From the NCBI GenBank assembly GCA_029261555.1, contig JAJDBB010000022.1, positions 1-51,227 on the forward strand: a stretch of DNA of 51,227 bases. Direction: 5' to 3'. Below are positions 12,043 to 36,918 of the stretch, in pieces; the first letter of the stretch is position 1, and every line of letters begins with the position of its first letter. The DNA comes from Nitrospinaceae bacterium (GTDB taxonomy: Bacteria; Nitrospinota; Nitrospinia; Nitrospinales; JACRGP01). The notes beneath the pieces were generated by a model. It was not told the origin of the DNA and made no database searches. It saw only the letters and a list, made by a program, of their open reading frames with translations. Position numbers and translations under genes: made by a program.

Positions 12043-12864
12043 TCACGCGAAAAATTTTACCTTCCGCAAGCGGGCAAAATACAAGGCAAAAACCAGCGCA
12101 ATTAAAACGAATGCATGCGCCCACAACCGCCCAGCCTGGAACGGAAAACCAAAGTCGACGGCCCCGTTGACGTGTCCGGCATAATGCTTCATCAACTGCC
12201 CGTATTCAATCATGAGGTGCACGGGATAACTTCCCGGCGCCATGGGGTCCGGCTTTTGTAGGGGAACCTCAAATGCCTTCTCCTCCCCGCCTCTCAAAGT
12301 GAACCCCAGCATTCCTTTAAATTTGTCGGCCTTCAGCCCCTTGGGCAAATGCAACATCATCTGAATATTTTTGAACGACGACGATGAGTTTTTGAGGACG
12401 ATCTTGAGAAAGCTGTTCCCCTCCCTTTCTTCGGCAAGTATCTCTCCTTCAATAGCTGATTCCAGAGCTTCCTTGTAATAAAAGGAATCGACATGCATTT
12501 GCATCCGACGCGCGGATTCCGTTTCGTCCGCTTTATAATCGACGCCGATCATTATCGGATACCGTCCCACGCGAAGCACGGGAGGATGATTGTCGTTTGT
12601 GAGGGATATTTTTGCTCCCGCCTCCAACTTCGGAATCGCGGGCGCCATGAACTTTGAATGATGAAAATGGAACATGGGGCGAACGTCATACAAGGTTTGC
12701 CTTCCCGCATTTTTCAAATCCAAAACAATCTTTACCTTGCCGTCTTCGGAGACCTCGGACAGGGTGGAAATATCCAGCAAGCCCTTGTCTTCCGCCTCGG
12801 CCTGACCCGCCAGAGCGCAGAAAAACAACGCCGCCGTCAATCCATGTTGCCACTTAACGTTCAT
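12043..12864 (-). CDS. Exported protein with C-terminal membrane anchor, unknown function
   Basis: A 273-residue protein not recognised with confidence. It has a signal peptide (HGLTAALFFCALAGQAEA), two beta-rich stretches resembling CARDB/NEW3-type Ig folds (VKIVLDLKNAGRQTLYDVRP; FLKIVLKNSSSSFKNIQMML), and a single C-terminal transmembrane helix (AHAFVLIALVFALYFARL) followed by a basic tail. This implies a periplasmic domain anchored in the inner membrane. It is divergent from the DUF4175-like/MoxR cluster across 96 bases, so a shared control region and a joint role at the membrane are plausible but unproven. Confidence 0.7.
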   Translation of the reverse strand: MNVKWQHGLTAALFFCALAGQAEAEDKGLLDISTLSEVSEDGKVKIVLDLKNAGRQTLYDVRPMFHFHHSKFMAPAIPKLEAGAKISLTNDNHPPVLRVGRYPIMIGVDYKADETESARRMQMHVDSFYYKEALESAIEGEILAEEREGNSFLKIVLKNSSSSFKNIQMMLHLPKGLKADKFKGMLGFTLRGGEEKAFEVPLQKPDPMAPGSYPVHLMIEYGQLMKHYAGHVNGAVDFGFPFQAGRLWAHAFVLIALVFALYFARLRKVKFFA

Positions 12865-12960
12865 CCAACCGTCGTCCCGTTTTCAAAGCCTTGTTTGGCG
12901 TCATTGAAGGATTAAATGTAATACAATGAAACTGGGGTTAAGCGCCCATGGTTAAATTAT

Positions 12961-25130: not shown

Positions 25131-25574
25131 TCAGTCAGCTTTCTCGCCGTTGTCGACCATCATTTGAAGCAGCAGAGATTCATATTCAAGCAGGTCAAAC
25201 TGCCCCCCTTGCCGAATGCCGCGAAAATGTAAATCCCCGTAAGTACCCATTACCGCGTGCAAGGCTTCATGCTCTTCCGCCCCATTCTCTTTCAGTCGCA
25301 TTAAAGTTTCGGCGACAAACACCGGATTATCATTGCGCAACTGCACGGAAATAATACCGTGCAATACCACATGAACAAAAGGGTTCACTATCTGTCCGTC
25401 GATGGGTCGCGCGATCAGGGCGACGTCGCCCTGCGGCCAGAGATCGTCGAATTCCGGATGCAAATCGAGGACTTTTGCAACCTCCAGTTCGACTCCTTCG
25501 AGTTCCTTCCCATCTGCCCGCGCTTCGGCCACGTAAAAAATTCTTTCTTGAGTCTCTTTATCAAAAGCAAACAA
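25131..25574 (-). CDS. DUF1841-like small cytoplasmic protein
   Basis: A 147-residue protein. The segments HPEFDDLW, NPFVHVVLHGIISVQL and GAEEHEALHAVMGTYGDLHF resemble DUF1841 proteins, of unknown function, with conserved His residues. The start is TTG 25574: the upstream frame closes at a TAA (25596-25598) with no ATG or GTG between, and GGAG lies eight bases upstream. The start region is part of a 26-base direct repeat whose other copy lies 193 bases upstream of this gene (see the repeat entry). Confidence 0.65.
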   Translation of the reverse strand: MFAFDKETQERIFYVAEARADGKELEGVELEVAKVLDLHPEFDDLWPQGDVALIARPIDGQIVNPFVHVVLHGIISVQLRNDNPVFVAETLMRLKENGAEEHEALHAVMGTYGDLHFRGIRQGGQFDLLEYESLLLQMMVDNGEKAD

Positions 25575-25779
25575 TAGCCAGTCTCCTACATCATCTTAGG
25601 TTTGATTACCGCTTCCAGGCGTTTGTCCATCATTACTGGCCCAGGCGCCTCGCCGACCGGGCAACCCCGGTGGTAGAATTTGAAATGCAACTGCTTTACA
25701 ACCTGCAACTTTATCCAAAAAGGATTCGCTATCTGGACCCGGCGCCTCGCCGCTCAAAAGCGAGCAATTGCCAGTCTCC
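25561..25779. repeat. Imperfect 26-base direct repeat bracketing the spacer
   Basis: Bases 25561-25586 and 25754-25779 match at 23 of 26 positions (TCAAAAGC, then a variable core, then GCCAGTCTCC), exactly 193 bases apart. The first copy covers the Shine-Dalgarno and start codon of the DUF1841-like gene (minus strand); the second is a broken copy in non-coding DNA. A shorter echo, CCAGTCTGC, occurs at 25815-25823. Confidence 0.8.
25644..25752 (-). repeat. GGCGAGGCGCC repeat pair in the 25.6-25.9 kb spacer
   Basis: On the minus strand GTCGGCGAGGCGCC occurs at 25657-25644, and CGGCGAGGCGCC at 25752-25741. A third copy of the 14-mer lies on the plus strand at 36836-36849, also non-coding. All three are intergenic. 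The spacer 25575-25870 contains these, the direct repeat and a terminator hairpin, but no supported gene. Confidence 0.65.
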
Positions 25780-25800
25780 AGCAGTTCATTAGTTTATTTT

Positions 25801-25839
25801 AAAAGAAACGATTCCCAGTCTGCGGGGCGCTCGTTTCTT
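25801..25839 (-). terminator. Probable terminator of the 25871-26155 gene
   Basis: A 9-bp stem, AAGAAACGA (25803-25811) and TCGTTTCTT (25831-25839), with a 19-base loop that can add CCC:GGG pairing. On the minus strand the 3' arm runs into CTTTT. It lies about 30 bases downstream of the minus-strand stop codon. Confidence 0.5.
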
Positions 25840-25870
25840 CACCTCAATCACTATTAGATAGAAAAGCGCG

Positions 25871-26155
25871 TCAAGGGGTTTCAGAGAAATGCGTTCTTCG
25901 CTTTTCCCCGACTCCGCCGTACACCATGAAGACCCGCTTTCCCTGGCGCACATGGTACTTGGCCCAGGCGGGGGATTTGCCGTCGTAGCAGGCGTCGGGG
26001 TCTTCTCCTTCAGCTTTAAGGAAGTCTGGGTAATCCAGTCCGGCGTCCATCACGTCCACCATCAAGGCGTCGGTGGTGAACCCGTCTCCGGTAAGAGATA
26101 TTTTGATTAAAAACTCCTGGATTTTTGCCGGGTCGTTGAGTTGAATAGCCTCCAT
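25871..26155 (-). CDS. Small acidic protein, unknown function
   Basis: A 94-residue protein that I do not recognise. It begins MEAIQLNDPAKIQEFLIKIS and contains DYPDFLKAEGEDPDACYDGK and a basic C-terminal half. There is no signal peptide or membrane helix, so it is cytoplasmic. ATG 26155 is preceded by GAGGAG with close spacing. A terminator-like hairpin follows. Coding is supported by the ribosome site, the terminator, and an open frame in a gap otherwise without genes. Confidence 0.6.
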   Translation of the reverse strand: MEAIQLNDPAKIQEFLIKISLTGDGFTTDALMVDVMDAGLDYPDFLKAEGEDPDACYDGKSPAWAKYHVRQGKRVFMVYGGVGEKRRTHFSETP

Positions 26156-36813: not shown

Positions 36814-36918
36814 CGTGTCGCTGGTGCCAATAGGCGTCGGCGAGGCGCCCTTTTAATTGCCTCCGACTGTTTGAGACGACTCACGTTCCCGTAAATCTAT
36901 CTTCTTTTCATCCGGCCT

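Follow-up and report, generated by a model that had tools for sequence, protein, structure and literature searches.

A dispersed hairpin-ended repeat next to a duplicated gene start in a Nitrospinaceae genome, probably the footprint of an insertion

The spacer upstream of a DUF1841 gene

The stretch of DNA analyzed here (the window) comprises 51,227 nucleotides, positions 1 to 51,227 of contig JAJDBB010000022.1 from a Nitrospinaceae bacterium (assembly GCA_029261555.1). The genome to which it belongs (G000) amounts to 3.05 Mb in 129 contigs and is 86% complete. We have compared it mostly with the draft, likewise 86% complete, of its one congener (G001), which appears to be the Nitrospinaceae MAG OFTM44 (JAJDBD); by the same token, G002 and G004, mentioned below, would be JACRGP and JACQQK. 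The gene of interest lies on the minus strand (25131–25574), starts with TTG and codes for a protein of 147 aa that matches DUF1841 (PF08897, E 5.2e-15) and whose orthologue in G001 has 88% identity. Upstream of it and on the same strand there is an ORF of 94 aa without Pfam match (25871–26155).

An earlier note on this sequence had pointed out that a 26-base block covering the Shine-Dalgarno sequence and the TTG start of this gene recurs 193 bases upstream, and this is indeed the case. The left copy (25561–25586, minus strand) contains the GGAGA and the TTG of the gene, and the right copy (25754–25779, minus strand), which is non-coding, is identical to it at 23 of the 26 positions; none of 300 shuffled versions of the 331-bp region gave a 26-base match above 19. 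A weaker third copy (25798–25823, 18/26) may be due to chance, and beyond the 26 bases, up to about 50 bp, the duplication was not significant, as 25% of the shuffles were equally good. At the three positions in which both copies differ, G001 agrees with the right copy once and with the left copy twice. The right copy also retains GGAGA and TTG, and heads a frame of 12 codons (TTG ... TAG) that enters the neighboring element; it could serve as a decoy start.

Moving outwards from the gene, a flank common to the congener (25587–25609) is followed by a decayed hairpin (25610–25635, where G001 has TGCCTCCAGGCGCTTGCCTGGC), a first GGCGAGGCGCC hairpin (25644–25654, GGCG-CCT-CGCC on the plus strand) and a decayed element of ~97 bp in plus orientation (25657–25753). 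The latter is made up of a hairpin (25657–25670), a match to the core described below (25679–25752) and a right terminal hairpin (25739–25752), within which lies the second GGCGAGGCGCC (25741–25751). This hairpin stops at 25752 and the second copy of the gene start runs from 25754. The 11-mer GGCGAGGCGCC is found at 25644 and 25741 (minus strand) and at 36839 (plus strand); the surrounding 14-mer is exact at 25644 and at 36836–36849 (plus strand) and has two mismatches at 25741, so that the two copies between the blocks and the third one at 36836 are where the earlier note had placed them. By eye, the surroundings of the third copy resemble other hairpin modules of the family. Within the window alone, the three occurrences of the 11-mer with up to one mismatch are not striking (mean of 1.8 expected).

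The same note had proposed an alignment of the spacer with relatives. In G001 the spacer is short: apart from a single gene start, it has only the hairpin TGCCTCCAGGCGCTTGCCTGG and some bases (CCGGGCAAC) similar to the left end of the element. The suggestion that the spacer contains remnants of a decayed gene finds no support in this short counterpart, with its one hairpin and few further bases, nor in the core, which is common to dozens of spacers. About 40 bp after the left gene start are common to G001 before both sequences diverge, so that the copy in the window is no simple flush insertion: the left block and the element are 70 bp apart, with shared flank and further hairpins in between that are partly present in G001. 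We read the spacer as an old, rearranged insertion of a dispersed hairpin-ended repeat. The doubled gene start, which the earlier note had not connected to the repeat copies, is probably the footprint of this insertion. Elsewhere in the window (12179–12903), about 720 bp have no counterpart at the syntenic place in contig C3 of G001.

A dispersed repeat family

The genome-wide search that had also been proposed gave 60 occurrences of GGCGAGGCGCC in G000 versus 4 of the reversed pattern. When these 60 sites were stacked, a stretch of ~65 bp adjoining the hairpin turned out to be common to many, not all, of them; some of the sites fall in coding sequence, probably by chance. By an iterated profile search we found 77 copies of this core (E<0.01) in 593 kb of DNA from the window's genome, overlaps included. 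Along the long stretches, 39 of 43 cores were intergenic in G000 (451 kb) and 39 of 46 in G001 (615 kb), the intergenic share of the sampled DNA being 10–12%. The corresponding densities, 95 and 75 cores per Mb respectively, may be too high, since the stretches were partly chosen for having matches. The small dispersed repeat family that had been suspected is real: its copies number in the tens, lie mostly between genes and clearly exceed the control.

We searched 64 genomes of the order with a sequence model of the core and found at least 74 matches in G000 and at least 75 in G001; 11 other genomes had 1–4 marginal matches (best E 3.5e-4), i.e., 13 of the 64 had any match. A pattern of the three common hairpin types followed by the GCCTCC foot was found 81 times in G000, 92 in G001, 26 in G002 and 15 in G004, once or twice in four other genomes and never in the remaining 56. 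The reversed pattern gave no match in any of the 64. Among the matches listed, the same hairpin pattern appeared in other contexts of unrelated MAGs; those labeled as Alphaproteobacteria or Ruminococcus carry the hairpin TGCCTCCRGGCGCTTGCCYGG (stretches L163, L164, L185, L196, L209, L214, L219, L220, L236 and L237; L166, L173 and L228). This is thus a genuine dispersed repeat family, common in the window's genome and its congener, with a core nearly confined to one Nitrospinaceae genus and hairpins that are more widely spread. By title and abstract, we found no description of it in the open-licence papers retrieved. At L045, L060 and L159 (J5) we also saw another family of short repeats, ...TAATTGGATATTTT...GCTTT...GGCCCTTATT...GCCGCTCACGGCCATGAT..., sometimes with the same hairpin inside.

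Anatomy and folding of the element

The unit of ~97 bp consists of a GC-rich hairpin, the ~65-bp core and a second hairpin. Tandem copies are frequent, with a period of 95–98 bp. The terminal hairpins are short, perfect and come in interchangeable variants such as CCGGCG-AGG-CGCCGG and CCGGGC-GTT-GCCCGG. The 6-bp stems have five main sequences (CCAGGC, CCGGCG, CCGGGG, CCAGCG and CCGGGC), and there are additional CCAC and CTGC stem types with a GGCGA loop. Among the 143 copies (out of 156) having the foot, 116 showed a perfect hairpin (4 bp or more) after the core, compared to 25 ± 4 when the halves were shuffled among copies. This excess, together with the several stem sequences, indicates that the hairpins are interchangeable modules in which pairing is kept. 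The clearest complete unit was found at locus L126, described in the next section. It has the ends CCGGCG... and ...GCCCGG, which are hairpins, and there is consequently only a short imperfect inverted repeat between its ends. Positions 25656–25753 of the window align along the whole of this element (72 identities in 105 columns).

The core carries imperfect internal palindromes. RNAalifold predicted no consensus pair on 30 copies, and two internal core helices that we drew by hand showed no covariation above shuffles; their pairing was better in register than after sliding, which is no surprise for helices drawn from these same sequences. The terminal hairpins were tested separately, being poorly aligned in the alignment used for the core helices. 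The L126 element, taken as single-stranded DNA, has a better fold than its shuffles (z of −3.1 for one strand and −4.4 for the other), and the result was less clear for the element of the window (−2.3 and −1.9). At gathering thresholds, Rfam gave no match in the window. With neither an Rfam match, nor an RNAalifold pair, nor core-helix covariation, we have rejected the reading of the repeat as an RNA family.

Direct duplications around the elements

The usual evidence for an insertion is a full unit between exact long duplications and a single-copy site in a relative. Left and right flanks were compared for 116 element clusters, with 689 mismatched flank pairs as control. Scores of 14 or more were reached by 4 of the 116 clusters and by none of the controls (with a threshold of 13, by 4 clusters and 2 controls). 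These four, namely L249, L126, the window and L116, have direct duplications of 20–48 bp of a gene start or end. Stricter masking of the family words left 1 of 117 in one run and 2 of 116 in another, some of the duplications being hidden by it.

The clearest case is L126, in contig C43 of the window's own genome, where an exact 39-base repeat (GGCGAACTG...GCGTGCTAA) is found at either side of 97 bp that have a hairpin at the beginning and another at the end. The repeat spans the end of an ORF of 110 aa and the beginning of the ORF that follows, which has 103 aa and looks ferredoxin-like from its sequence. In contig C96 of G001 there is a single copy of the repeat, running into the same next bases (ACGTTAAATT), and no element. 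When L126:16016–16327 was compared with this contig (L279), the 103-aa ORF was found to be absent from G001 except for its first bases. The reverse situation was found at L249 (contig C11 of G001), where a repeat of 42–48 bp, which includes the start of an ORF of 348 aa, encloses 188 bp, the element plus further sequence, and the left copy stops at a hairpin. Here it is contig C30 of the window's genome that has a single copy and lacks the element, so that at two loci a long duplication has a single-copy, element-free counterpart. At L116 the repeat of a gene end (17/20, or 22/34 if extended) surrounds 214 bp, and G001 has no insertion at this site. A fifth, decayed case may be L122 (24 bp), its score of 10.8 lying within the control range. 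The two copies of the duplication match perfectly at L126 and less well at L249, in the window and at L116, which fits differences in age.

Most copies of the element, however, have no flanking duplication. Duplications flush with the hairpins at both ends were not significant overall (3/82 versus 5/322 at z of at least 5; 1/82 versus 0/322 at z of at least 7). Only one of the 63 new clusters in a second sample of 754 kb scored over 14 (control 3/492), and as it corresponds to a pair of tRNA-like 3′ ends it was set aside and the sample counted as 0/63. At 15 sites one of the two congeners has the element and the other lacks it. Among insertions defined by synteny between them, 4 of 15 had a duplication, a count that becomes 2 of 13 once two counterparts that had been fetched because of their duplication are removed; several of these insertions resemble replacements of 15–60 bp rather than clean insertions. 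No near-identical donor for the L126 element was found in the sampled DNA, the best other match having 83%. The lack of a donor and the second sample without duplications have slightly lowered our confidence in the explanation favored below.

We have also surveyed all direct duplications spaced 60–500 bp in about 1.48 Mb of sampled DNA. Out of 140, 108 were inside one ORF (where the window is counted, owing to a spurious overlapping ORF), 21 were the family itself and 11 were others. Three of these 11 are L249, L116 and L126, two more enclose copies of the family (the tRNA pair at L274 and a 17-bp A-rich match at L278), one is L222 and the rest are unrelated. At L222 (6368–6678, in G001), an exact duplication of 19 bp, located where a gene probably starts, surrounds about 245 bp that belong to a different repeat family, of the CCTCTCCC...GGGAGAGG type. 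Long duplications may therefore not be peculiar to the hairpin-ended element. At L312 (15709–16005) and L274 (188–541), elements lie between tRNA-like 3′ ends whose common terminal sequence mimics a target duplication.

Position relative to genes

The five main types account for 298 perfect hairpins in 1.82 Mb sampled from both genomes, and 42 of these were located 5 bp or less from a stop codon, compared to 124 of 3860 (3.2%) for random placements in the same gaps; the stop codons were those of ORFs of at least 100 aa ending there, called mechanically. Divergent spacers are also occupied by classified cores (8 of 38 in the window's genome and 4 of 36 in G001).

Origin of the duplicated gene ends

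On balance, we favor, with some reserve, that the spacer long ago received a non-autonomous MITE- or REP-like repeat that can duplicate long targets. A hairpin-ended unit of ~97 bp would insert and duplicate about 20–48 bp of its target, the duplication being produced by an integration enzyme supplied in trans. If this target comprises the first or last codons of a gene, the gene would keep its end intact while a dead copy of that end would abut the element, and the 26-bp repeat of the window may have arisen in this way. The duplications missing at most copies would have decayed. Direct repeats of MITEs fade with time, as far as PMC10969869 describes them, and such a decay would explain why most copies of our element show no duplication. 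A repeat that duplicates 20–48 bp of target can occupy gene ends without breaking genes, and leaves decoy start or stop regions beside them; spurious start sites and new spacer sequence in compact genomes would have a simple origin in such a repeat.

Regarding the enzyme, G000 has no match to RAYT (Y1_Tnp, PF01797), for which 5 of 14 control genomes were positive, to reverse transcriptase (RVT_1, PF00078), the genome being incomplete, or to DDE_Tnp_1, of which G001 has two genes. Cas1 (PF01867) was not found in G000, G001 or G002, and in G004 the matches are two stretches of one place. We have rejected these four routes for want of a match in G000, and since this genome is 86% complete their absence is not final. 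The missing enzyme bears on how hairpin repeats spread. It is tentative, and rather doubtful in all its parts taken together, that a largely genus-specific, hairpin-ended element of ~97 bp is inserted by an enzyme other than a RAYT, Cas1, a reverse transcriptase or a DDE_Tnp_1 transposase, with target duplications of 25–48 bp. In that case insertion in gene termini would be harmless, as the duplication rebuilds the gene end that is hit, and this would explain the enrichment of the hairpins near stop codons.

The main rival is template switching at hairpins, a serious alternative in spite of being, in our opinion, somewhat improbable. The replication fork would stall, the nascent strand would copy a hairpin repeat elsewhere and resume 20–50 bases behind, leaving a repeat flanked by a duplication with no need of a dedicated enzyme. 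The variable length of the duplications (20 to 48 bp), the insertions that look like replacements of 15–60 bp, the 19-bp exact duplication around a different repeat family at L222 and the lack of a candidate enzyme in G000 among the four families searched all fit this explanation. However, the L126 insert is exactly one unit with a hairpin at both ends, and copying from arbitrary points would not repeatedly give whole units, even if L126 is the only case so clear. It is unlikely, and more so than template switching, that the duplication in the window is an unrelated short segmental one that merely lies beside a repeat. The flank and hairpins between the left copy and the element, partly common to G001, and the many copies without duplication would be expected in that case, but the right copy follows immediately on the terminal hairpin and the association with gene ends is found again in three other clusters. 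A role of the repeats as functional RNA elements (terminators or stabilizers of mRNA), with the spacing of copies being a product of selection, is very improbable: the hairpins are enriched beside stop codons and their terminal stems are kept through compensated changes, but the window has no Rfam match, the core helices tested gave neither consensus pair nor covariation, presence differs between congeners at 15 sites and divergent spacers are occupied too.

Comparison with known systems

The insertion of a small repeat that we favor can be compared with several known systems. Casposons, in the account of PMC10359463, also have a target duplication produced by an integrase, but they are ~10 kb long and the duplication is of 14 bp in M. 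mazei; unlike them, our element is accompanied by no Cas1 match in G000 or G001. Long target duplications, like those at some copies of the element, are described for IS1549/IS1634 (8–514 bp, in the data given by PMC2266710) and for the IS1202 group (16–28 bp, in those given by PMC10132070). However, these are insertion sequences of 1.5–2 kb with their own transposase, whereas the element has ~97 bp, and no DDE_Tnp_1 match was found in G000. The duplication looks unusually long for so small an element.

REP sequences and BIMEs associated to RAYTs, as presented in PMC3733652 and PMC8266576, are likewise extragenic palindromes in high copy number, often near or touching stop codons. In contrast, the element has a conserved core between its hairpins and target duplications, and G000 has no Y1_Tnp match. 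By eye, neither a GTAG nor a CGTC tag was seen next to the hairpins of the stacked copies, whose foot reads TGCCTCC, TGGCCCC and the like. Prokaryotic MITEs, as portrayed in PMC10969869, are also short, non-autonomous, intergenic and dispersed, with direct repeats at the younger copies. The ~97-bp unit is smaller than 500 bp, dispersed, intergenic and devoid of coding capacity, as MITEs are. Target-site duplication, a trait of MITEs, was found at 4 of 116 clusters and at 0 of 63 in the second sample. It departs from MITEs in that its ends are self-complementary GC-rich hairpins instead of a plain terminal inverted repeat, its duplications measure 20–48 bp and no parent transposon was identified. 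As a whole, the family is most like a MITE or a REP, with long target duplications at some of its insertions.
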